Origin: Daphnia pulex
Lineage: Eukaryota > Arthropoda > Branchiopoda > Diplostraca > Daphniidae
Assembly: GCF_021134715.1 (NCBI RefSeq)
Contig: NC_060026.1
Coordinates: 1,240,001-1,304,000 of the forward strand
DNA length: 64,000 nt
Direction: 5' to 3'
Under the pieces are notes generated by a model. The model ran no database searches. It saw only the letters and a list, made by a program, of their open reading frames with translations, and had not been told where the DNA came from. Positions 18,538-33,440 of the stretch are shown piece after piece; positions within the stretch are counted from its first letter, which is position 1, and each line of letters opens with the position of its first letter. Made by a program: the position numbers and the translations under genes.

Positions 18538-19765
18538 CTCATCCGCGCGACATAACTTGATTTGAGTTGCAAGTTTCGTGATCGATAATTTGCCAACAGT
18601 ATTCGACTTTTTCGTTTTTGTTAATGACCACGCCCAGTGCATGGCGGTAGGATCCCAGATATGGAGTACCATATTAAAAAAAAAAAAAGATTAAAAAAAA
18701 ACGATGATGCAGAACTCCCCGTAAGTCGTGAACATGGGGTTAGTAACGGCTAGAACGGGAATCACAACGACAAGAAGAAAAAAGAAAGAACTGGAATTGA
18801 GCTACGCTAATAGCTTTGGTCATTATCACTAGACAGCTCCAATCCTGTCAGAGGTTATGGTAAAGTGAATTCGTCCTCGAAAGTTTTCATGGTCATTTAA
18901 AATTGGAATGCAGATCACGTTTTAATTTTTTGATTTTAAGAAGAATGAAATATGTAATTATTGTCAAAATTAAAAGCCTATGTAACAGTTTCTTTTTTAA
19001 ATAGGAATTTTTTTATTCTGCACTATCAAAACGTTAACCTTGGTAGCCTACTATTTTTAATTGCAAGAGGAATTGGTGGAACCGCCAGACATATCCTGTA
19101 GCAGTTGTCTCTCGTACACCAATTCGGCTAAACGCATCTTATTGGCAACCTTATCGGTTGCCAGTTTGGGACTGGTTAGAAGATCTTTCACTTTTACTTT
19201 GCTACTGGCCATGAAAAGAAACAGGTTTCGTAGCTCTTCTGACTTTGGTTTTAGAGTTGGCGAAACGTTTCACCTAGCGACAAAATTACCTGCCGATCAG
19301 ATCAACGTGATAGTAACTGATATTCTTGTTTCTTTTTCTTTCTTGTCTAATTTTGCCATACCGTAAAGATAGATTTACAGTTGGCAGTCTTTGTTGTTTT
19401 GTATTAAGAACATACTTATTTGATTTCTCCCCTTTCCACATGGTAATAATTGTCTAATGAACTGTTGATCTCATTACAGACGCCAATTAACATTTTTGTT
19501 GAATTGGCTGGCTTACCTACAAATTGACGGTGAAATAGGGACAAGACAATACGAACTTTACGGTAAGCTTTTTTAACTTTATTAAACAGTCATAGACAAC
19601 ACATGATAAAACCCCCTGGTTTTCCCCTGGTTTTACAGTCGCATCATGCAAGGGTTGCCTTGCATTGTTAGTTTTAATTCTGATACTTAAAATTACATGG
19701 GTAAATTGCACACCAATTTCATGTGTTCAAATTACAAATCCTGAGTGTATGTGATAATAAATAAG
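18538..19765. other. Upstream region of the RR-trypsin, conserved among array units
   Basis: About 18,540-18,870 and 19,130-19,360 match units A, B and D. A 101-residue plus-strand open frame (19,061-19,366) has partial counterparts in unit B, but the A and D copies carry frame-breaking indels, so I leave it unannotated as a gene. Confidence 0.5.
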
Positions 19766-19837
19766 GGGGGTATAGCTCAGTGGTAGAGCATCCGACTGCA
19801 GATCGGAATGTCCCCAGTTCAAATTTGGGTGCCCCCT
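19766..19837 (+). tRNA. tRNA-Cys (anticodon GCA)
   Basis: A 72-base gene with a full cloverleaf. Acceptor GGGGGTA pairs with TGCCCCC, D arm is GCTC/GAGC, anticodon stem TCCGA/TCGGA encloses loop CTGCAGA (anticodon GCA), T arm is CCCAG-TTCAAAT-TTGGG, and the discriminator base is T, as usual for tRNA-Cys. The A and B box promoter elements (TAGCTCAGTGG, GTTCAAAT) are intact. It decodes UGC/UGU. It is the best of three copies in the window. Confidence 0.95.
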
Positions 19838-20004
19838 GCAATCGATTGAAGTGTTGCTAGTGGAATGCATGTAAAACTTGAATAGTATAAGTTAACATTA
19901 TGTAGTAACTTGAATCCTGTTTAAAAATGATCCCCTTGCCAAATTATTATTGTTTCTTGTATTAATCTTAGCCGAGTCTCGGCCTTAATGTTTATTTGAA
20001 AATT

Positions 20005-20819
20005 GGCGGGAGGCTGTGAGAAAGCAGAAGTATCTGTACATTTGGCAATGACGCTAATGGCTGCAAATCTGCTGTAAATATTCCAAAAATGTGATCGTCG
20101 TTCTCGTGCCTCATCTTTCTTTGCAGATTCAATTGCTGTTGTGTTAAGCAGGTAAAATAACCATAAAACCAATAATAAAAAAGTATGATTATTTTGGGGG
20201 CTTTCATTTCAAGGAGTAACTAGGTCCAAACTTGTTAAATTATGGTTCTTGTCTTCTTGACAAGCAATTATTGTGTAAGCCCCAAGTCATTGCAAGGGTT
20301 TGCATATGCCATTTACTTAATTCATGATTTAAATTCATCTTTTTCCTTTGAAAAGGTTTGATGTCTGAGACAGCATTCATCATCAGCAACAATACATGCC
20401 AGTTTTGCTATAGTGCTAGTAATGGCCTGTCATCAGCAACAGTTTCATCGACAGGGTAACTATTTTGGACTACCATTATTCCTCTGATCTTCTGCTATAT
20501 ATTTGAGTGATGGATAAATTGCATCTGCACAGCTTGTTGTATAAACAATTAACACATTTCTTTTTATCAAAAATGAATGTTCAGCCTCCATCTCATTTCC
20601 TTTAGTTTTGGTTATCCGTAGTTATTTTCTGTACTTGTTTTCATTTCTTCATGTTGGTAAACAGCATCCTGTTTGATTGATGACCACTTCTTCTCCCTTC
20701 ACATTTTCGTGAGTGAATTTACGAGGACGCCCATTCTCCCGTCTCACTTGAAATCCAACTTTTCTGCAAGCGGACTGTGGAGCACTCGTCCGTGTCTGGC
20801 GGTATTTCACGGAATCAAG
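20005..20819 (+). repeat. Exon-like cassette, copy C
   Basis: Diverged cassette copy downstream of the intact tRNA-Cys. The first block starts GGCGGGAGGC and ends at a gtaaaa donor (about 20,152). The last block ends GGAATCAAG with donor gtagga after 20,819. In unit D the equivalent is followed 240 bases later by the transporter exon; here the NACHT gene intervenes. It may represent 5' UTR exons of the transporter at 28,351. Confidence 0.55.
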
Positions 20820-21589
20820 GTAGGAAGTTTTTTCCTTTCTTCCCTCCCATTTAGTGGCGTTGATTATTGTTACATAAAAGTTATGGCCCGATGTAGACGT
20901 GTGATTCTGATATCGAACCAACGGTAGGCGAAAATCTCATTACAAATCTTGTAATTATCCAGTTAGCTTTTCAATGATTTTGATCCTTTATCTGCATTCA
21001 GGATCGCCCTTTAAAGAGTCAACAGCGGTAAAAATTGCGTAACAACAGTTCAGTCGGTAGCAAACTAGATCAAGTAAAGATAAAATCAATGAAAGGTCGT
21101 TTTTGATTCAGGGACTTACATTAATTTTAGAAACAAAAGAAAGCTCATAAAATCTTTTGAGTGTCAGTTTTAAAAGACCCGCTATTTCTGTTATTTCTGG
21201 TATGAAAGGGCCACTTCTCTGCTTCGTTTTCGGTACACAGGCTTCAAAAGTTAACACTAGATGTCGGTTACAGAATTCCCCGGCGACCCCTCCCTTTGGC
21301 TATTGTTTGTCAGCAATCCTCATACCAAGCTCATACTCTCCCCACGCTGAAACCAGAGAAGCATTCAGTCAGTAGTCAGACGTTCGCTCTTCGACCGACA
21401 CGTCAGAGTTAAAACCTCTGCATTTCAGATTCTTTAAACATCGACAAAATTAAATATGTTGTGTGTAACAATTTGTTTGTAGCAAGTGTGAAGTGCTGTT
21501 TTGCTTGTCGTTTTAACCCTGACATTAACACAGCGATTTCAAATTTGTGCTAACAGTTAAATTCCGTGCTAACATAGCATTTCTCCGAA
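20820..21589 (+). other. Upstream region of the NACHT gene
   Basis: The first ~60 bases match the intron start in unit D (33,441-33,500). No TATA box is visible near the start codon. TCAGT motifs at 21,365-21,373 (TCAGTCAGT) resemble an arthropod initiator about 220 bases upstream of the start; this is only suggestive. Confidence 0.35.
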
Positions 21590-24500
21590 ATGGCTAGTAG
21601 ATCTGACGACCTTGATACCGATACTCTGGATGTGGAGAGACTTACGGTTTCGGGCACTCCGAATTCCCCAACGAAGGCTATTAACAGGCCCATTGCCGGC
21701 AGCTTATTCCAATTGAAATTGTCTAGTCTCTTTTTGATTCGGGGAGTGACTGCCAAATACCAGTTTCATTTGGGCACGGAAGTTGCCCACGAAGGCGGTA
21801 AGTTCGACGACCTAGTATTCAAGTATCAAGTGTCAACAGGTGGCGACCACCATCAGTGGCGCTATCGATTTTTACAAGCCAAGCACAAGCAAAACGAGAT
21901 CAAGAATCAGATAACGTCGGAAGCGCTTCTGGACGACGATCACGGAGATTTCAGCGTTTCCAAGTATTACCGTTCCTATTGCCGTGAAATTCTGAAAGGA
22001 ATTGAAGGTCGCCGCCCAGAAGAAATCGACGACGTCATCATTTGTACTAACATTAATTTCAACGAAGCTAATCTCAACGCTTATGGAATTGAGTTGGTGC
22101 CTCACAACGATCCGTCCGATAAGATTTTGTCTTTTGAAAAGTTGCCGGGAGGAAAAGTGCCAGTTCGTTACAAATTGAAAAATACGGGAGTGCTGCGCAA
22201 GAAGTTAAACGAAAGCTCGAAAAAGTCCAAGTTTTATTCACTGGCCAAAAAGTTGATTGAATTTGAAACGAGAAACATCTGCCTGTCCCTGACTCATGAG
22301 CTCATCAAAAATTGCCATTTGGCTTTGGTGAAGGAAAAGGTCATCGACTTGACAACTCAAAGGCTCCACTCGGATTTCATTTATGGGAAAAATTTGTCGA
22401 GCGATGCCAACGAATTACGAAGAATTCTCCGTGATTTTTCCATGAGAAAATTGATCTGGAAAGAAAATTGGAAAAGCTGCACCTTCAAGCTGGACGACGG
22501 GTTTGGAATTGGCGAGGAAGTTCAGTGTCTATCTGGTCCCGAGGAAGAAATCGACAGTTTCTTGGATAAGTTTGTCTTTGCTGTCAACACTCCAAACGAA
22601 GTGGAATTAGACGTCATTATGAAAAACGAGCTGGGGAAGTATTACAATCTACTCGTGAGCGACGTGCAATTCAATCACTTTTCAAACACGATGCTCGACT
22701 GGTTCAAGAACAAAGATTCCCAGTGGATGACATCAGACGAAGGGATTCGTATTCTTGCAGATATTCAAGAAAAGGTGGATCAGAGCCGCCGTTCGGTTTT
22801 AATCGATTACGGAAATCAGATCAATAAAATCGCAGAAATAACCGACACTGCGACTCAGGAAATGGCCGAGAAATTGAAACCTTTTCTTGCATCGTCCGAT
22901 AAATTGGAAAATATCAACTACATCCGAACCGACTGGCCAGATTTCACGGCTCTCAAAGTCATCGCGGCCATCAAGACCCTTCCCAATTTCAAGTTCACCG
23001 ACAGCTACATGGTTATTTCATCGAAACACGCACAGAAGAAGGAAGACTTTCAAGATCTGAGGAGAATGTTCAGCAACGGAAAAGCTCATCATCTTCTTGT
23101 AATCGTCTGCGAAGACCACAGTCCCATCAGCTACGACAAGTACGTGAATCTCGTGGCCGATAGCGAAGAAAAGAAAATTTTGTTAATCGTGAAAAAAGGC
23201 ACCGATGTCCGTCCGCAACTTCTCATCAACGAAGACGTCATCAGCTACGGGCAACTCAGCGAAAATTTCAAAAATGTTTTGCTGTCGAAAAAGGTTTCAT
23301 TCCAGGGAAAAGACATGCCCGTCAGAGATCTGATCCCGCCGGACAAAGCTGAAAATGTATTGGATTGGGAATCGATCAAAATGTTGGCGGCGCAGAATAA
23401 AATCGTCGTCCCGTCGTTCAACACGACACGTTTTGAGCGATCTCTCTACATCAAGAGGCGGATGGCGTTACCGTTTGAGTTCGACAGTAAATTTTGGGAG
23501 AATTTGGCCGAAGACATGAAATGTTCAAAAACTCTCCTCATGTCCGAATGCAAATTCAATACCAAAGGTGCCATCGTTTGGTCTGCCAGTGAAGAACGAA
23601 AAGTGGAGATATGGGAGAAGATAAAAATTAAATTAAGTGATAGAAGCACCTTGGGTCTTCCGGCTAACGCAAACATTTCAGAAGACGAGTTGATTTTTGA
23701 CAAGAAGTGGAAAAATAGTGCCATTGTCATCTCTGGTGGTGCCGGAACCGGAAAGTCGACGGTATTATCTCACTACTGTGAAACAATCAAGAAAACAAAA
23801 CCAACTCGCTGGATCAGTAGAATCAATTTGGTCGATTATTGCGAAATTCTATCGAAATTTGAACCCAAAATGAAGGATAACTCGTCCAACGAAGAAGATG
23901 AGGAGGATTTCTCTACGACCATCGACTTTTTCGTCGACGAACTCAACATTCGTGACTGTGAAAATGCGTTTTCCCGTTCGCTATTGAGGCACCAGCTGAA
24001 GATGGGCGACAATAGGGTCGTCGTCATGTTGGACGGTTTCGACGAAATCAGCAGTCAATTTCAAGAGAAAGCGATTCACCTGATGAAAGCCATCATCGCC
24101 AACAAATCGGTTCAACTAATTGTCACTACTCGGCCTCACATGATGGACCAGTTGCAGTTGCAGTTGTCTCAATTGGCTTACAGTCTGGAGAACTTCACCG
24201 AAAAGGACCAAATTGATTACCTGTCCGAGTATTGGGAAACTAACCTGAAGGAGCTGGAAGACAAGTCCGTCGTCATCCGCAAGTTTTCCGAGTATTTCGT
24301 CCAACGTGTGTCGCAAACTCTGAAGGACAAGGAGAAATCCTTCATCGGAATCCCGTTGCAGTGCCGCTTAATGGCCGAGTGCTTCCAGTCAGACCTACAG
24401 GGAATAATAAAAGAAAATAGAAACGACAGTGAAATCCAGAAACTGCTGGACGGGCAGAAATTCGATCTGGCCACCATGTACAATCGGTTGATGGAAACGA

Positions 24501-27328
24501 AACGACGAGTGTTTCTCCAAGAAAAGATTAGTGTGTCAGCTCCCAACCCAATAGTGGCCTACGCTATTGACAGTTTCATCAAGAAGATCGAATTTCACCT
24601 GACCAAATTGGCCATCGAGACGATTTTTATCGATCAGGGGACAGTGAATCTTTTGTGCCCACCCAATTCGCAGCACCAGTCCAAATTCGAAAAGGCCGCC
24701 GAGGAAAAAGCCTTTGCCGAATGCGGACTCAAATTTGGTTTGACGTTTCATAACGGCGAAAAAGTTCAATTCCTGCATCGAACCTTGGCCGAATATTTAG
24801 TGGCAAAATTCTTTTTCCAAGGATTCAGTTTGGATCAAGAAAAACACAATGGGCTTTTGGATAAGTCTGTCGTTCGAGATTTGATTTTCAGTGTCGTGAT
24901 GACGAAAAATAACGGCATCTACGATGGCGTCCAAATGTTTTTCGATTCGTTTTTGGCAGAGTTAGTCGACGAAGATGAAGAATGGCGCAACATCATCGAC
25001 AAACGCCTCAAGAACAAATTCCCTGAACGCTTCAAATCTTTTATGAATGGCATTATCAACAAACAGCAATCAGTTTACGTTGTGGATCCCAACATTTTGG
25101 ATGTGCCCATCATTCAGAGGAATACGAACCTCTTTAAATTCATTTGCGACTGCCTCGACATGATGATCGAGCCGGTTAAACTTCGAAAAAGTATGTCCTC
25201 TTTGTTTCGTGTCATTTGCAAATTCTTTTACGAGCAAAGTAGCGATGCTTACAAGCGACTTCTCAGCTATTTCAGTAGTCCTAGCGAAATCGAATTTATC
25301 AATATTCTTAGCCACATTTTGTACTACCCCATGCAAATTTACCAGGATGATTTGTTTTGGAATGAAGTAGAAAAGAAGAAGATCCTGAAACTTGTTCTCG
25401 ACTTTATGGGAAAGAACCTGGCGACTTTGAAGCGAATTTTGAAAAACCGTCCAAATGTAGTTGATGTGATGCAAATGAAATTTGCACTTCACTTTTTCAT
25501 GTGCAACGATTATTACGACAACGAACTGAAGCAGTATCTTGAACTCTTGTCATTCGCCTACTCCAGCGAACCCTCGTTTCTCAACCTGTTCGGGGCTACG
25601 TTCAACATATCCGAATCGCATTTCGGGAGCTTTCAGCTGAATGGCAAAATGGAGAAGACGGTGATTATCCTACGAAATCTTGGACGGATCAGAGTGCTGG
25701 AGGCACTTTCTCATGTAGTGCTCCTGCGGGATCCGGAAGTGTTTCGACGCTATTACGAACCCTCTCTATCACTAGACGAAACGGACGTCGTGTCGACTAA
25801 TTTGCATCAGATGTTGGCCCGGGACCAGTACCGAATGACCCGACTCGACCGAGCTGCATTCCGCGGTGACACGGGAGCTGTCGATCGCATACTGCAAACG
25901 CTTCGCCACAGTCTATCATCTGCTGAAACCAACGAAAAGGTGATGAAGACGGCCAAGGAAGTTGTAGATGACATTGTTTTTCGTGAGAGTCAAGAATTTA
26001 CTTCATTTTTCGTGGCTGCCGCCTTCGGTCACGAAGAAATCTGCCGCAAACTGCTCATCTTCTTCAAAGAACTTGTGAACATGAAGGTATTGCCCTTGAA
26101 ACAGTTACAAGATTTCTACGTCTCCCCAAATGGAATGATCTACAGCGCCGCTCAGCTTGCCATTCGCTTCCTGAAATTGCCAATGTTCCGATTGATTCTG
26201 ACGTCTGTCAAACAAATAATGGGGCAGCGCCCTCTCGTTTTCCTACTAAAACAATTCATTTTGAATAACAAGGAATGGTTCGAAACGTTGGCCGAAATCG
26301 TCGTTGATGGCACGGACGGAACTACCGGATACCAGCAGTTGAACGAGATCGTTTTGCAAGACTCTAGTACCCTGGAGGCACTACGCATCGTCGAGAAAGA
26401 AACTTTCAACCAAATGGTGTCGGTAGACGGAGTCGAAAAATGGACGAAATGTCTACTGGATATCGACCTTCCCAAGGGCTTCCATTTGCTCTCCCGTCAC
26501 CACCTGAGTCACTTTGATCGAACCCAAATGCGCAGTTTCATTAAGACCATCATTACCGACAGCAGCGGCCAAGAAAATAGCTACTGGGATCGCTTGCTGT
26601 TATTGAGTGCACAAGATTTCCCGTGCAATGACTTTGAGATTGATTTCGATCACATTTTGAAATGCGCCTGGGATAAATTGGTTCAAGGTAAAGAAAGACT
26701 GGTACTCTGTCGTTTCAATGGAATTACAGGTTTCCTGCTGTCGCTCTGCGAGTCGTTCTGGTTTTACGGCGACAAAAGTCTTGGGTACCGGCTGTTGGAT
26801 TTCGTTAAGGAACGCCAAGACGAGGAAGTGATCCGACGAATGATGAAGTGTATGCCCACCTTTTTACACTACGTCATGGATCCGTTCGGAAAAATTCCGG
26901 TCCGTGGTACTGTCATCCAGACCCGGATGAAAGTTTTGGAGTTTGCCCTGGATCACGCCGGTCATCTTTCCAATACTCGTCAATTCTCGGATTTGGTCGA
27001 CGCTCTATTGATCCCGCTCGTGGACTACGACGGTAGAACGCGCAGTATTTGGTGCTACCAGTTCCGTTTCGACTTTTTCTACGCCGAAGAAGTTGTGGCC
27101 AGCAGAGTGGGCCAGTTCTTGTCATGGGTGTCGACGAAACTCAACAAACGTAAAGTGAAAGAGCTGGTGACGCACAGGTACGAAGATGAATCCGGATCTA
27201 CAAATGTCATCTTTTACTTGGCTTCAAAGCACCGCCGGAGTCTGGTCGAAATCATGCTGTCTCATCTGGAAGAGTCGGATCGTCGAGAAATCCGCCTCAT
27301 TGCAGCCGCAAGTGGATGTCTAATGTAA
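21590..27328 (+). CDS. Intronless NACHT STAND ATPase with N-terminal nuclease-like domain
   Basis: A single 1,912-codon frame without introns. Residues about 35-200 carry a spaced motif set E64, D73-D74, Q96-x-K98 (…TEVAHEGG, FDDLVF, FLQAKHK), the active-site pattern of PD-(D/E)xK nucleases of the DUF4297/Cap4 type. The NACHT ATPase follows: Walker A GGAGTGKST (716-724), Walker B VVVMLDGFDEIS (D815, DE at 818-819) and a sensor-like VTTRPH near 846. A helical C-terminal half follows; about 1,417-1,550 has ankyrin-like repeats (DRAAFRGDTGAVDRIL; VAAAFGHEEICRKLL). NLR/STAND proteins oligomerise on ligand binding; with a nuclease effector this resembles bacterial Avs or Cap4 defence proteins. The nuclease call is motif-based. 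The stop overlaps an AATAAA signal. The lack of introns suggests retroposition or transfer. Confidence 0.85.
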   Translation: MASRSDDLDTDTLDVERLTVSGTPNSPTKAINRPIAGSLFQLKLSSLFLIRGVTAKYQFHLGTEVAHEGGKFDDLVFKYQVSTGGDHHQWRYRFLQAKHKQNEIKNQITSEALLDDDHGDFSVSKYYRSYCREILKGIEGRRPEEIDDVIICTNINFNEANLNAYGIELVPHNDPSDKILSFEKLPGGKVPVRYKLKNTGVLRKKLNESSKKSKFYSLAKKLIEFETRNICLSLTHELIKNCHLALVKEKVIDLTTQRLHSDFIYGKNLSSDANELRRILRDFSMRKLIWKENWKSCTFKLDDGFGIGEEVQCLSGPEEEIDSFLDKFVFAVNTPNEVELDVIMKNELGKYYNLLVSDVQFNHFSNTMLDWFKNKDSQWMTSDEGIRILADIQEKVDQSRRSVLIDYGNQINKIAEITDTATQEMAEKLKPFLASSDKLENINYIRTDWPDFTALKVIAAIKTLPNFKFTDSYMVISSKHAQKKEDFQDLRRMFSNGKAHHLLVIVCEDHSPISYDKYVNLVADSEEKKILLIVKKGTDVRPQLLINEDVISYGQLSENFKNVLLSKKVSFQGKDMPVRDLIPPDKAENVLDWESIKMLAAQNKIVVPSFNTTRFERSLYIKRRMALPFEFDSKFWENLAEDMKCSKTLLMSECKFNTKGAIVWSASEERKVEIWEKIKIKLSDRSTLGLPANANISEDELIFDKKWKNSAIVISGGAGTGKSTVLSHYCETIKKTKPTRWISRINLVDYCEILSKFEPKMKDNSSNEEDEEDFSTTIDFFVDELNIRDCENAFSRSLLRHQLKMGDNRVVVMLDGFDEISSQFQEKAIHLMKAIIANKSVQLIVTTRPHMMDQLQLQLSQLAYSLENFTEKDQIDYLSEYWETNLKELEDKSVVIRKFSEYFVQRVSQTLKDKEKSFIGIPLQCRLMAECFQSDLQGIIKENRNDSEIQKLLDGQKFDLATMYNRLMETKRRVFLQEKISVSAPNPIVAYAIDSFIKKIEFHLTKLAIETIFIDQGTVNLLCPPNSQHQSKFEKAAEEKAFAECGLKFGLTFHNGEKVQFLHRTLAEYLVAKFFFQGFSLDQEKHNGLLDKSVVRDLIFSVVMTKNNGIYDGVQMFFDSFLAELVDEDEEWRNIIDKRLKNKFPERFKSFMNGIINKQQSVYVVDPNILDVPIIQRNTNLFKFICDCLDMMIEPVKLRKSMSSLFRVICKFFYEQSSDAYKRLLSYFSSPSEIEFINILSHILYYPMQIYQDDLFWNEVEKKKILKLVLDFMGKNLATLKRILKNRPNVVDVMQMKFALHFFMCNDYYDNELKQYLELLSFAYSSEPSFLNLFGATFNISESHFGSFQLNGKMEKTVIILRNLGRIRVLEALSHVVLLRDPEVFRRYYEPSLSLDETDVVSTNLHQMLARDQYRMTRLDRAAFRGDTGAVDRILQTLRHSLSSAETNEKVMKTAKEVVDDIVFRESQEFTSFFVAAAFGHEEICRKLLIFFKELVNMKVLPLKQLQDFYVSPNGMIYSAAQLAIRFLKLPMFRLILTSVKQIMGQRPLVFLLKQFILNNKEWFETLAEIVVDGTDGTTGYQQLNEIVLQDSSTLEALRIVEKETFNQMVSVDGVEKWTKCLLDIDLPKGFHLLSRHHLSHFDRTQMRSFIKTIITDSSGQENSYWDRLLLLSAQDFPCNDFEIDFDHILKCAWDKLVQGKERLVLCRFNGITGFLLSLCESFWFYGDKSLGYRLLDFVKERQDEEVIRRMMKCMPTFLHYVMDPFGKIPVRGTVIQTRMKVLEFALDHAGHLSNTRQFSDLVDALLIPLVDYDGRTRSIWCYQFRFDFFYAEEVVASRVGQFLSWVSTKLNKRKVKELVTHRYEDESGSTNVIFYLASKHRRSLVEIMLSHLEESDRREIRLIAAASGCLM

Positions 27329-27332
27329 TAAA
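27327..27332 (+). terminator. Polyadenylation signal overlapping the NACHT stop codon
   Basis: AATAAA begins inside the TAA stop codon (27,326-27,328), implying a very short 3' UTR if used. Confidence 0.5.
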
Positions 27333-28350
27333 AGAAAACCGCTACACCAAGCATTTCTGATCTCCAATCGATACCCTGCAGCAGTTCACTGTGTCGTTCA
27401 CCTGTTTTCAAGTCCCCGGAATAGCCTGCGACTATGCCGGATACTGTCGGCTGGCAGTCTCGAGGCGCAAGTCAAGCCGGATTGTCGCTCAACAAAGGGC
27501 CGTTCCGTGGCGTCACTTTGAGCAGAGGTCTGAACAGTGGAGCCTGGCAGGTCCAGTTTCCCTTATTTCTTTATCCTATTGAGTAATTTTTATTTAGTCA
27601 AGATGCCAAAATCAAGCTGGTCATTGCTCTATTTGCTTGCCAAATTCATGTGTACCAAGAAATTATGCTGAAATACAATATCGGCTGCTCAATTTCTCAG
27701 TAGCGCCGCTCATTAAGAAAACATGAGTAACATTTCATTTTCTTTTAATATTATCATTTTTAAAATCTTAATCTTAATTTGATAATTACCTCTAAACAAT
27801 ATGTACAATTAATTTATAATCAAATTTTCCTCGTAGGTTCGTGAGCCACATTGATCGTTGACTCTAATCAGGTAAACTAAAAGTTAATTTTGTAAGCCAA
27901 ACATCGTCTCATAATCTAATCATTTTTCTGTTGATTCACAGCGCAGACCGAAAGAAACAACAGGAATTAATGGCTTGGCAAATAATTACAGGAAGATATT
28001 AAGAAAAATGCTGCATGCTGTCCACCGGATTCATAAATTCACATCCGCATGACTTACGACTAAAAACAACACCGCCCTTCAAGGTAAAATATTGAGAATG
28101 GTCGGTGAACCTTAATATGTTACTCGCGTCATTCCTTTTTTATTTTTTAGGGAAATTTTGGCAGCTCGTGACTGGATCGGCCGTTCTGTTTTTATCTGGG
28201 GAAATACAAACGCTCTCTACGTGACTTCAATCATGGCCTTATCACGCGCTTCTTTTTCCGCCAGAAGGCTCTGGCTTAACATTCTGTATAGTTCTAGTTA
28301 CCGATTCGGCCACAGGTATTCTCACTCTTTGATCACTTTTCACCACAACA
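27329..28350. other. Spacer between NACHT and transporter genes
   Basis: AT-rich, with several AG/GT splice-like sites around 28,150-28,320 that could be 5' non-coding exons of the transporter. No coding region is supported. Confidence 0.4.
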
Positions 28351-30196
28351 ATGGTGGTGGTCAAAGTTTGGTGGAAGAGTTTTATCCAGATTTTACCACA
28401 GGTGAGTTATCCAATTATCTCCCGTTTTAGATGGCTTATTTTTCATTTGCTTGTCCACTTATTCTTATTATTCAGTGCAGTTGATGGTGACAATATGGGG
28501 ATCGTGCGGCTATTTTTGCATGGGTTCCGTCCGAGGCTGGAGTTCTCCTGCTATCCCATCACTAAATCGGACAGTAGACTTTGAATTGTCTCCGTCAGAC
28601 CTCCAGTGGATATGTAACAATTTCAAAGATCAATTTCACTTCATTTTAACGACAGTTAAATTGTTTTTTTTATGACAGCTTCGTTCCCGTTGCTAGGAGC
28701 TGTTCTCGGTTCCTTATTCATCATCAAACCGATGGAGTATTACGGCCGGAAGAAGGCTCTGATCGGCCATTACTTTGTCTTCGTATTCGGTTTTCTCATC
28801 ACCGCATTGGCAAGTTTCGGGAAACACAAATCCATGTTGTACGCTGGCCGATTCCTGATGGGTTTCGCCGCCGGATCTACCATCCCCGTCTGTCAAATTT
28901 ACGTAAGCATTGTGCTGTAATACTTGGGTGTATATTCTCTAATAACAACGCGATTTATTGATAAAAATAGGTGAGTGAGTGCGCCTCTCCGAAAATTCGT
29001 GGTCGACTTGGATCAACTACAATATCTGCAATGGCTCTGGGCGTTTGGACAACTTACATAATCGGGATATTTGTCGACTGGCACCTTCTGACATGGGTCT
29101 TTTGTTGTTTACCAGTTCTTTTCCTCTTCGGTACCATGGTGATGCCCGAATCTCCTTCCTGGCTTCTGTCAAACAACCGAGAACAAGAGGCTCGGCAATC
29201 GCTTCAGTTCCTCCGTGGAAAGTATTCACTACACTTTTATTTAAAATTGGGTAAAGGAAAATAGGTTATCGGTTATATGCAATTTTTTTACAGAGGTACC
29301 AACATTGAGGCTGAAATGAAGAGGATTAAAGAGTATCAAGAAATGATCAATATCAATGATCCTGCATCAACTACTTCCATCGTCAAACCCCTGGGCATTT
29401 CACTGGGAGTCATGCTATTCCAGCAGACGACCGGAATCAACGCCATCGTTTTCTACGCGGACGACATTTTCCAGGCAGTTGGCAGCACAATGGACGAAAA
29501 ATACGCCACAATTATCGTCGGTGCTGTCCAACTGGTTTTCACCATCGCATCCGGATTTCTGGTAAGGCACTCACTTGTTGTCTTATCCCAGTCAAAAGAC
29601 TAACTATAATTCATGTGCTATAGGTGGACAGATGCGGAAGGCGGATGCTATTCCTCGGTTCAGCCATCACTTCTTCAGTGCCTTTGGCTACCATGGGAAC
29701 GTTTTTCTACTTCGAACGCCAATGGGGCGACAAAGAAGCGACTCGATACTTTGGTTGGCTGCCACTGGCCTCTCTAATCGTTTTCTTCGTCACTTATTCC
29801 GGCGGAATGAGTAACGTTCCTTTCATCATCATGGGCGAAATGTTTCCCGCTCGCCATCGGACATCACTGGGAGCCATCAGCTCTTCTTTCAATCTCTTTT
29901 GCACTTTTGCCATGGTCCAACTTTTCCCTGACATGTCACAAGCGTTTGGCAAAGACGGCACTTTCTATTTTTTCACCGGATGTACTTTACTGAGTGCCGC
30001 TTTTGTTTATTTCCTTCTGCCGGAGACGACAGGCAAAACACTCGAAGAAATGGAACAGTTATTCCGCTCCGATAAAAGTCCAGGCTGTCGTAGCAATAAC
30101 CATAGTAATTACGTGGATGTCATCATGCAGGTTGAAAGTAGCAAAAATAATTATATTACTGAACTATGCAATTCAGAAATATATTTCATCATTTAA
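28351..30196 (+). CDS. MFS sugar transporter (Tret1/GLUT-like)
   Basis: Six exons: 28351-28401, 28481-28613, 28679-28902, 28971-29221, 29294-29561, 29624-30196; phases agree and give 499 residues. Sugar-porter signatures are present in order: GWSSPAIPSL after TM1, EYYGRKKA between TM2 and TM3, GRFLMGFAAG (TM4), PKIRGRLGS, PESPSWLL before the central loop, QQTTGINAIVFYADDIF (TM7), DRCGRR between TM8 and TM9, and PETTGKTLEEME after TM12. Twelve membrane segments fit. It would carry hexoses or trehalose across the plasma membrane. The start is the least certain part: the first exon is short, and an ATG at 28,484 or upstream non-coding exons are alternatives. Confidence 0.88.
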
Positions 30197-30289
30197 ATGA
30201 ATTAAAATGCACGCCTTAGAATGAATTTTTCCGGTACAAGTCGTGAACTTGAACTTGATTTATTTTCAAATCAGCGCTTATTTGTATAA

Positions 30290-30870
30290 TTTCTTTTTTA
30301 AATTTTTCTGCGTAGAGAGTTGGAAATGATGCGAATAGCGGTGTGACGGAGGGGAATCAGAATTTTCCCCTTTTTTCTGTGTCCGTCCCCATCCCTTGGC
30401 AGTGGCCATCTGGTTCGTCGCTGGATCCCGCCGGAGGTAAACAGACGGGTGAAATAGCCGAAGTGAAAACAACGGGCGACTCCAACGTCAGGATGGCGAT
30501 GTCGTTGTACTGAAATTAAAATTCAGTCAACGTATAGGTAACTCTTCTTTATTTATTGTTGTTATTTATTGTTGTACTCACGTGAGTGATTGAATCAAAT
30601 TCCCCCTGAACTGATGTCACACCCCTGACTCGTTCATGAAGTACGTGCCTAGTAACACTTTGAAACGTTCGGGGCCCAACATCTGATCGAAATTGAAACC
30701 ATAAAATCAATTTAAATAGTTTAAGGGACTTAAAACAATCATTTTCAGAGACTAGGTCGTTAACGTAATAAGCCGCTATTAGGATTTGAGTCGAAGTAAT
30801 CAACGATGCTCCTCAGTACAAAAAGTATTCGTCAGTTAGTCCGTCATTGCGTTTCTTTAGTGCTCCCTTG
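30290..30870 (-). pseudogene. Broken trypsin gene, related to the 56,657-57,928 protease
   Basis: Minus-strand remnants of three exons are recognisable: the Asp-containing exon 5 (about 30,310-30,513), exon 4 (about 30,590-30,690) and exon 3 (about 30,750-30,860). They align with the intact protease E but have lost the Ser exon and the catalytic-His region is degraded (LIAAYYV where LTAAHCV is expected). Frames are interrupted. Non-functional. Confidence 0.8.
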
Positions 30871-31379
30871 TGAATTTAATTAGATTATGTCGACGTAAAC
30901 CAGTCCAACTACATACGATATTGTGATTACGTAATCCAAGGACATAAAAGTCTGGTCGCAAGGTCGGCCATTGACTCCCGCCGTCAGACTACGAATGAAC
31001 AACTCTTTATGGCGTGATCGATCGCTTTCAATTTACCGGTCCATAATCAATTCAAATGTAATCAATTAATCATTCCACGATTGGCCAGAGACTCAACAAG
31101 AATAATCAGGTTTAGCTTTGTAATGCTGTTGAAAGGTTCGGTTGTATTTGAATAAGACATCAATCAACATCCAATTCAACAATTTTGATTAAATACATTA
31201 AAAACTCATTGATCAAATTATTAAATCTGCTCCACGATTTCAACTGCTGTTTGGATTCGCATCCAGATCTAAATGGACTTCCCAACATTAGCATAATTGC
31301 GTCCGGTTTTTCAGTAGTGCCAGTCGGGGTGGTAGGGGTGCGTGAATCTCGAGTGCCTTATTTCCTCACATGTGTTTTT

Positions 31380-31690
31380 CTATCCAAGGTAACGACGCCA
31401 CTTTCGCATAGAGGCCGGGGATGCCCTTGGCGCATTCTACTCATTTTCATCATGCACAGAATGAACTTTAACTGTTTTCAACGAATCGAAAGATTTTACG
31501 TACCATCGCCGTAGCTGACGAAGCCGATTTGCTTGTAAGGGTATTCGGCATCTTTCTTATCTTCAATGACCAGCGTCCAGCAGACCTCCGCTGTCGTTCT
31601 ATTAGATCCGACCAACCCGAGTTATTACAAATCCTTAGATTCATATCAAAATTGTGAAGTGCCACTTACCTGGCAAGCGTCTTATCCGTT
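31380..31690 (-). pseudogene. Broken RR-trypsin gene (3' exons only)
   Basis: Copies of exons 7, 6 and the very end of exon 5 of the RR-trypsin. The Ser-containing exon begins NDSGG and then shifts frame into a stop; the last exon keeps ECAKG..GLYAKV. After about 20 bases of exon 5 the sequence jumps straight to the gene's upstream promoter segment, so exons 1-4 and most of exon 5 are deleted. Confidence 0.8.
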
Positions 31691-32421
31691 ACCAATTTCT
31701 GTTATCGGCCCGTCTCTTCTATACTCATCCACCAGACGGGAATTTGATTTCGAGTGCAACTTTACGTGATCGATAATTCCCCAACATTATTCGAGTTTTC
31801 GTCTTTGTTAATAATCACACCCACTGCAGTTGGTTGTCAGGGCTGTAAAAGGAAAAAAAGGAAAAATAAAATGATGTTGCAAAACTCATCAAACTGTCGT
31901 TCCAAAGTTGTGCATGGGGTTAGCAACGTCGGGAAGAAAAGGGGAATCACGCCGAAAAACTGGACTTGAGCCACGCCCCGTAGCTATTAGGACATTATCA
32001 CCACACAGCTCCATCCGTGTTAGAGGTTGCGGCAAAGTCTATTTCGTCTTTGAAGTGTTCACGGTCAATTATAAGTAAAAATGCAATTTGAATTGTCTCT
32101 CCAAAGATCGCACACAACAGGCAAAAACACATCTCATTATCCTTACCTGTTGTCAGTTGTTATGACTGGTTATAAAATTTTTAATTATCTGTTCAATCTG
32201 TTCAATCACTGGCCGTAAGGAAACACAATCAGCAGTCTTGTTGGCTGTGGTGGAAGAGTTAGCGAAACGATTCACTTGGTGATCAGATTAGTGATAACTT
32301 GAGTTTCTTAGTCTCTTTCTTTCTTTGCTAATTTAAACACAAGTACATTTGCTATTGAAGATATTAATTTAATTCAACTTTTATTAACTTGTGACAAAAT
32401 TTATTAAAAATATGCTAACAT
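31691..32421. repeat. Promoter and upstream segment of the array protease (unit D)
   Basis: Matches 18,510-19,370 and 1-550, with a degenerate TATA box near 31,717. It is not linked to an intact gene. Confidence 0.6.
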
Positions 32422-32493
32422 GGGTGTATAGCTCAGTGGTAGAGCATCCGACTGCAGATCGGAATGTCCCCGGTTCAAACCCGGGTGCCCCCT
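32422..32493 (+). tRNA. tRNA-Cys (GCA), one acceptor-stem mismatch
   Basis: Same 72-base structure, anticodon stem-loop and promoter boxes as 19,766-19,837. The acceptor 5' strand is GGGTGTA, leaving a T-C mismatch at pair 4-69, while the T stem is better paired (CCCGG/CCGGG). It may be functional, or an early-stage pseudogene. Confidence 0.8.
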
Positions 32494-32578
32494 GTGTGTG
32501 AATGAATTTCTGTATATGATATTCTAAATTGTCTTTCTGCCCGTCTTCAGAGAACTTTTCAAATTTTCTTTAAAATTG

Positions 32579-33440
32579 GCGGGGAACTCGGGAGGAAATA
32601 GAAGTACATTTGGCAACGTCGTTAATGGCTCCACGAAAAATAGCAGAAACACCTACGATTCTACGAATTAAATGTGGTCGTCGTCTCGTCGAGTCGTACG
32701 TCTTGTCTCACGTCTCATGTCTCTTTTCACAGATACACTTGATACCGATGAGCAGGTAAATAACATAGCATGATAAGATTAATAAAAAGAAGCTGTTATT
32801 AAAAATAGTGTGATTATGGGGGCTTTCATTTAGAAGAGTTCCAAGAGTAACACAGACCCAAACTTGTAAAATTTTGATTCTTGAAATTTGAAAAGCAATT
32901 GTCATATAAGCCCCAAGTTAATGTGTGGCAGTAACTTGCTGTATGCACAATGTAAATTCATCTTTTCTTTTGAGCTGGTTTGATGCAAGTCAGCGAACAT
33001 CTCAGTTTCATCGACAGGATACTTATTTTGTGATACCATTATCGCTGTGTATGTATGTTACATATTCAAAAAGTGCACACCTTGCATTCGTGCAGTGTGC
33101 TACTTAGCCTACAAATCTTACATTCACTTGTTAATTAAAATCAAATGATTAGTTGCTGTTGCTGACCCACTAGCTCATTTCACTTATTGTATGGTTTCCA
33201 TAAATATTTTTCATTACATGTTTTTCATTTCTGAGTGCAGATATTTAGCATCCTGTTTGATTGGAGATTCAACCGACGTCGGGTCATCTCTTCTTTAAAT
33301 CCCTCTTGTCTTCGTGATGTACACCCATGTGAGTGGTATATTCACGTGAACGCTCTTTTTCATCTCTCGCCTGCCTACGTATTCAACATTTCTGCGGATG
33401 TAGCACTTAGGATGCCTGGCCGTATTTCCCAAGTTTCAAG
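32579..33440 (+). repeat. Exon-like cassette, copy D
   Basis: Diverged copy following the tRNA-Cys. The first block starts GGGGAACTCGGGAGG and ends at gtaaat (about 32,755). The last block ends TTTCAAG, but its donor is GA instead of GT (gaagg at 33,441), so splicing at this site should be lost. Confidence 0.6.

Follow-up and report, generated by a model that had tools for sequence, protein, structure and literature searches.

A NACHT protein family of Daphnia pulex with an N-terminal domain probably related to Cap4/Avs-type nucleases

The stretch of DNA analysed here (the window, 64,000 nucleotides) occupies C10:1240001-1304000 in the 133-Mb, 13-contig genome of Daphnia pulex. Its plus strand carries a real open reading frame of 1912 codons (21590-27328) with no internal stop, the parts of which are listed in Table 1. 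The encoded protein contains a canonical NACHT ATPase with the Walker A motif GGAGTGKS and the Walker B motif LDGFDE, in agreement with the preliminary description. The Pfam NACHT family (PF05729) matches with an E value of 3.2e-10 and 40.5 bits (cut-off 26.7), and it is the sole Pfam family above its cut-off in a scan of the whole protein. The residues proposed as the catalytic set of a nuclease (E64, D73, D74, Q96 and K98) were found at exactly the positions claimed for them.

Table 1. Parts and motifs of the NACHT gene, in window coordinates (aa, residues of the encoded protein)
Feature	Position	Strand	Basis or remark
ORF, 1912 aa: nuclease-like domain, conserved middle region, NACHT, long C-terminal half	21590..27328	+	
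Variable leader, aa 1-31	21590..21682	+	dN/dS 0.71 vs C2 paralogue L002, fast evolving
Cap4/Avs-type PD-(D/E)xK nuclease-like domain, aa 32-190	21683..22159	+	profile comparison
E64, proposed catalytic acidic residue	21779..21781	+	12/13 copies; Q in L014
D73-D74	21806..21811	+	D74 13/13; residue 73: D 11/13, E 2/13
Q96-A97-K98, QxK motif	21875..21883	+	13/13 copies
Middle region, aa 191-640	22160..23509	+	aa 400-640 recognisable in 14 aligned loci
NACHT ATPase, aa 712-883; Walker A 716, Walker B 814, TTRPH 846	23723..24238	+	Pfam, motifs
FLHRTLAEYL, aa 1061-1070, after NACHT	24770..24799	+	motif
C-terminal half, aa 1131-1912, putative helical-repeat sensor	24980..27325	+	least conserved, identity 0.30

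The nuclease-like domain had been described as lying directly ahead of the NACHT domain, and this proved incorrect. The former ends at about residue 190 and the latter starts at residue 712, which leaves a gap of about 520 residues, partly filled by a second conserved region (residues ~401-640). Behind the NACHT domain lies the motif FLHRTLAEYL, which we take to be of the winged-helix type. The C-terminal half is indeed long, and may act as a sensor built of helical repeats; its supposed ankyrin-like character was not borne out, with Pfam Ank_2 scoring below threshold in both the window protein (0.15 and 0.07) and the paralogue L010 (0.019). Leucine-rich repeats (LRR) and death-fold domains were absent by Pfam from the window protein and from the three paralogues scanned whole, and no SAVED sensor domain was found among the Pfam matches of the whole window protein. 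When the whole protein was compared with the PADLOC models, no Avs model matched, and the only match was mad8, on the ATPase (2.3e-5). A PDB search with the whole window protein gave no meaningful match.

The neighbouring exons in the window encode, by Pfam, an insect-type cuticle protein, a trypsin, a sugar transporter, an HMG box protein and an Arf GTPase, and therefore place the gene in an arthropod context. Two tRNA-Cys genes that are 93% alike (19766-19838 and 32422-32494) flank it 12.7 kb apart and in the same direction, and over roughly 500 bases downstream they are accompanied by other similar stretches (77-81% alike). These copies and the similar stretches are probably an old segmental duplication around the locus.

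The window gene (L001) is a member of an expanded family. A protein search of its own genome gave at least 30 matches, several of which are pieces of one gene; 25 of the 49 candidates were scored, so that the copy counts are lower bounds. Fourteen loci were examined (L001-L014), 13 of which are on C10 and one (L002) on C2, and further family fragments occur on C7, C8, C10 and C12. Two domain-based genome searches yielded 18 matches each. At least 12 copies of the nuclease-like domain are open, and 11 of these share a frame with a NACHT domain, forming the genes L001-L006 and L008-L012, with open frames of at least 1286 codons. The domain of L014 is found in a 759-codon frame without NACHT, that of L007 in a broken gene, and the remaining domain matches are short remnants; these domain counts omit L013 and the NACHT-only frame of L007. 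L013 itself (L013:970-6000, minus strand) consists of NACHT and middle region and has no nuclease-like domain. Pfam detected 17 NACHT matches in the genome, 13 in this family and the other four at three places, and both Walker motifs are kept in all 13 NACHT-bearing proteins. The protein of L012 (L088:172-7611) reaches 2480 residues, with a C-terminal half that is longer than that of the window gene and has no Pfam match at E 0.1.

Of the five parts for which mean pairwise identity was calculated (36 pairs of nine proteins), the nuclease-like domain is the best conserved, at 0.52, followed by residues 641-1130 (NACHT) at 0.43, residues 191-400 at 0.39, residues 401-640 at 0.38 and residues 1131-1905 at 0.30. 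For the pair L001-L002, dN/dS takes values of 0.71 (leader), 0.17 (domain), 0.16 (residues 191-400), 0.23 (residues 401-640), 0.21 (NACHT region) and 0.36 (C-terminal half); five other pairs were not relied upon because of their higher dS, in part saturated or undefined. The nuclease and NACHT parts are thus under purifying selection, the L001-L002 ratios being well below 1. That observation bears on the idea of a decaying or selfish family with little present function, for example one whose long, single-ORF copies were propagated through a mobile element or retroposition. The single-ORF genes, the copy on another chromosome (C2), the broken or cut-short L007 and L008 and the small remnants, some of them on C7, C8 and C12, would all fit such an origin. 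Nevertheless, we consider it highly unlikely, since 11 copies with domain and NACHT have stayed open over at least 1286 codons, since dN/dS is so low in both parts, and since a search of 19000-33200 for repeats of at least 25 bases showed nothing beyond the tRNA-Cys duplication and, within the ORF, a single inverted repeat that is short and imperfect.

The proposed catalytic residues are conserved among the paralogues. In 13 aligned copies, counted with the broken L007 and without L013, which has no domain, E64 is retained in 12, and D74, Q96, K98 and E103 in all 13. In the 12-row alignment, 24 of the 159 domain columns are invariant; alignments A2 and A3 omit L007. A loose form of the motif, E-x(5,12)-[DE]D[VLI]-x(12,35)-QxK, was found over the domain in all 12 domain-bearing proteins tested, although a glutamate further upstream supplies its E in L014, where E64 is missing, and also in L005 and L008 as a result of leftmost matching. 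Outside the domain the pattern occurred once in L008 and once in L013. It also appeared in 40 of 5000 shuffles of the domain, and its presence in one protein alone is therefore weak evidence.

Bacterial nuclease domains were used for profile comparison. A small set (A7) gave P 0.0045 against the family and led to a larger one (A8), an alignment of 18 Cap4-type and Avs-like domains. Ten of these come from Cap4-type proteins (six annotated SAVED, three identified via a PADLOC effector model and one hypothetical protein) and the other eight from proteins that are STAND-type or short; L072 (near L071), L067, L069, L070 and L086 were omitted. Of the plasmid records, seven of 19 were retrieved and six used from the first search, and 7 of 27 were retrieved and used from the second. 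Two further loci, L090 and L091, were retrieved and left unused. Comparisons were made with five bacterial sets or subsets, of which two gave no significant match; their choice after weak PADLOC matches amounts to a mild selection. In the PDB, the A8 profile retrieved Cap4 (7yib, 2.7e-51; 7yia, 1.3e-49). Because the A8 member L080 looks near-identical to 7yib, this match serves to identify the set and not to test it.

The family profile (residues 32-190, 12 rows) matched A8 over 116 columns with Prob 80.4, P 1.3e-5 and a score of 37.5, and a longer family alignment (residues 32-270) gave P 4.6e-5. The alignment is in exact register from the G..FQ start through E64, DD and QxK, and extends to the CTN strand. 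Shuffling of columns (300 runs, best 22.4) or of blocks of 20 (300 runs, best 21.6) never attained that score; the reversed control scored 10.8, and the middle region gave P 0.39. Removal of L014 changed the match little (P 1.7e-5). The ten Cap4-type proteins alone were sufficient for a match (P 9.3e-5; 0 of 300 shuffles reached the score), and the Avs-like/STAND subset alone was not significant (P 0.025; 7 of 300 shuffles). Eight positions are invariant in the 18 bacterial domains, and seven of them correspond in the family to G (12 of 13 copies), Q (11), E (12), D (11, with E in two) and D, Q and K (13 each). In place of the eighth, a leucine, the family has isoleucine in its nearly invariant column 151. 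Through the bacterial profile, K98 aligns to the lysine of the Cap4 QIK motif, a position that is alanine in 7yia.

As a second method, an HMM of A8 was run against the 14 family proteins and 280 shuffled decoys. L012, L011 and L010 ranked highest, with whole-protein E values of 1.1e-6, 7.4e-5 and 8.9e-5 and best single stretches of 2.7e-4, 0.001 and 0.0052 respectively. Ten of the 12 domain-bearing proteins surpassed the best decoy by whole-protein value (0.22) and nine by best stretch (0.73); L004 and L006 scored below the best decoy, and the window protein itself gave E 0.093 (best stretch 0.4). In the reciprocal search of 1165 bacterial and phage-contig ORFs, the best Cap4-type ORF was L084 (E 0.0027), placed behind the unrelated ORFs L063 and L062, both of which had themselves been retrieved with the family profile.

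The preliminary description had called the domain Cap4/DUF4297-like. This proposal is supported in part, by the match to the Cap4-type/Avs-like profile, the conservation among paralogues and the purifying selection. The LmuB-type DUF4297 set A6, by contrast, (six-row profile) gave P 0.46, 0.33 and 0.16 against the family. A6 and A8 do match each other by profile-profile comparison (P 5.8e-7). One might argue instead for convergence or an alignment accident, in which an unrelated alpha/beta domain carries E, DD and QxK by chance and takes part in signalling between proteins, as death-fold domains do in other animal NLRs. The failed LmuB comparison, the similarity missed by single-sequence searches and the occurrence of the loose motif in shuffled sequence are all in keeping with it. 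A chance resemblance of this kind is improbable in view of the in-register match over 116 columns with a score reached by 0 of 600 shuffles, the direct finding of L012, L011 and L010 by the bacterial HMM, and the bacterial-invariant positions largely matched in 13 copies. The N-terminal domain is thus, very probably, homologous to the Cap4/Avs nuclease domain, as judged from these sequence comparisons.

The relationship is a distant one. The Cap4_nuclease family (PF14130) had no match in the D. pulex genome or in the domain copies, and we therefore class the domain as a distant homologue and do not assign it to PF14130. In the window protein the domain is not marked by any Pfam family, an NCBIfam scan of the domain gave nothing usable, and a PDB search with the domain profile had no meaningful match (best E 0.37). 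Among PADLOC models, the 12 aligned domains matched LmuB (0.0016), endonuclease effectors (0.0055 and 0.011) and SAVED_PDDEXK (0.015), each in one member. With longer N-terminal pieces of 10 proteins, L004 matched LmuB (0.0028) over DD and QxK, L005 matched an endonuclease effector (0.011) and SAVED_PDDEXK (0.03) over QxK and the part behind it, not DD, and no Avs model was matched. Direct searches found no bacterial relative. NACHT-based scans returned 15 and 8 loci with weak matches to the ATPase region; plasmids yielded none, and phages one that was spurious.

Several candidate matches were rejected. Phage_TAC_4, the best Pfam match in the 12 domain copies (6.1e-5), was attributed to chance because 11 of the 12 members do not match it; in L010 it covers residues 70-172 at 0.0041 and 17.8 bits (cut-off 21.1). 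A PADLOC match of L011 to Cas8b (0.019) was likewise judged to be chance. Searches with the family profile in two bacterial phyla (292 and 299 genomes) gave one match each (L062, 0.002; L063, 0.019), both situated behind the motif region and taken as chance.

Among known systems, the CBASS effector Cap4 (EcCap4; 7yib/7yia) shares with the window protein the order and spacing G..(Y/F)Q - E - DD - QxK. Unlike Cap4, the window protein has a NACHT domain and a long C-terminal half, no SAVED domain was found in it, and it has no match to Pfam Cap4_nuclease. With Avs-type STAND nucleases (L068, L071 and L073; SeAvs3) it has in common the order of a Cap4-like nuclease, a STAND/NACHT ATPase and a C-terminal part. 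L071 combines in one chain Cap4_nuclease at residues 7-177 (29.1 bits, cut-off 26.2) and NACHT from residue 262, both above the Pfam cut-offs; over the ATPase region it also matches Avs1b (1e-16). In L073, which bears a NACHT annotation, endonuclease-effector (PADLOC) and NACHT matches occur together; this protein was seen whole, and L068 and L071 are cut by the locus end. The ATPase matches of all three start near residues 257-273, in contrast to residue 712 in the window protein, which also differs in having an animal host. The suggested architecture of bacterial Avs/STAND nucleases therefore holds for the domain order and the NACHT motifs, and fails for the closeness of nuclease and ATPase and for an Avs match in PADLOC.

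What PMC11291478 sets out on these domains includes the structural likeness of the DUF4297, Avs3 and Cap4 nuclease domains, the tetramerisation of Avs3 by viral proteins, which pairs its nuclease domains, and the placing of DUF4297 proteins (LmuB of Lamassu; DUF4297-HerA) in the same PD-(D/E)xK superfamily as Cap4. DUF4297 proteins have no direct profile match to the family described here. Animal NLRs, as represented by shrimp LvNLRC (PMC12370184), resemble the window protein in their NACHT domain and large C-terminal part. They differ from it in that the window protein is without LRR or death-fold by Pfam and has a nuclease-like N-terminal domain.

The additional spacing in the window protein amounts to 400-450 more residues between the nuclease-like part and NACHT than in the bacterial STAND nucleases. 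None of the three compared has room for a counterpart of residues 191-640 before the ATPase. Residues 400-640 (22787-23509) are recognisable in all 14 loci aligned, L014 included, with 23-83% identity to the window protein, and had no PDB match better than E 0.13.

L014 differs from the other members. The locus (L087:2505-6280, minus strand) lies at about 14.927-14.931 Mb of C10. Its 759-codon frame has no NACHT; it encodes the nuclease-like domain together with a middle region of weak similarity (23% identity), and Pfam recognises no family in it. In the domain, Q replaces E64, while D74, Q96 and K98 are kept. The frame opens with a stretch resembling the end of a protein kinase: in a PDB search with the first 35 residues, 36 of the 37 chains listed were protein kinases, matched weakly (0.095-1.1) at the end of the C-lobe. 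Immediately upstream are three frames with Pfam matches to the kinase domain, of which one exceeds the cut-off and two fall short of it. The nearest of them ends three bases before the L014 frame, and its best PDB match is eIF2AK3 (5e-24), followed by GCN2 and eIF2AK1. The arrangement of the frames suggests that kinase and nuclease-like frame are likely to form one fused gene.

The leaders ahead of the domain also vary. By a simple pattern, short basic runs resembling nuclear localization signals (NLS) were seen in six of the 12 leaders examined (L001-L006 and L008-L013), namely those of L005, L009, L010, L011 and L012, which have the domain, and of L013. The other six, that of the window gene included, have no such run. 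Some members could thus be nuclear, and the location of members may differ.

Fold families of the PD-(D/E)xK kind act on many substrates. A true Cap4/Avs relative might accordingly do other work: it could serve genome maintenance or the control of transposons by cutting RNA, or DNA that is damaged or foreign, or it could bind nucleic acid without cleavage. The NACHT domain would then regulate this activity, and the family need not be immune. Besides this breadth of substrates, possible nuclear targeting through the basic runs in 6 of the 12 leaders agrees with such a role, and non-cleaving use is conceivable from L014, which is without E64 yet keeps D74, Q96 and K98. The joint presence of E64, D74 and QxK in 12 of 13 copies argues against it, as does the resemblance of the family to receptor families in its NACHT fusion, clustered copies and faster-evolving C-terminus. 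We regard this alternative as unlikely, with a minor but real chance of being correct.

Our preferred reading, which we hold to be moderately probable, is that the family encodes a NACHT-gated nuclease effector, that is, an NLR-like receptor with a distant Cap4/Avs-type nuclease domain. Such a receptor, cytosolic or nuclear, would sense a ligand with its fast-evolving C-terminal half. Binding would cause the NACHT ATPase to oligomerise, and this would pair the N-terminal domains, presumably of PD-(D/E)xK fold, by analogy with Avs3. The paired domains would be catalytically active and cut nucleic acid, most likely DNA, which would disable an invader or kill the infected cell. For nuclear members, self-damage, or defence against nuclear viruses, would be at issue.

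A broader proposal is put forward more tentatively, as possible but somewhat doubtful. The proteins may constitute an arthropod NLR-like multigene family with a built-in nuclease executioner of bacterial type, an animal equivalent of Avs that has gained a middle module, and the nuclease-middle module may in addition have been moved onto a kinase of the eIF2-alpha type, giving nucleic-acid cleavage and translation arrest as the two outputs. No description of the architecture of nuclease-like domain plus NACHT in arthropods was found in the open-access literature, which leaves priority unproven. If the family works in the way preferred above, the NLR-like repertoire of at least one arthropod is of a different kind, in which the effector lies inside the receptor, as in bacterial Avs, in contrast to recruitment through death-fold adaptors. 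A connection of animal receptors to the STAND nucleases of bacteria would then become testable, and the question would arise of how an animal cell keeps a DNase off its own chromosomes.
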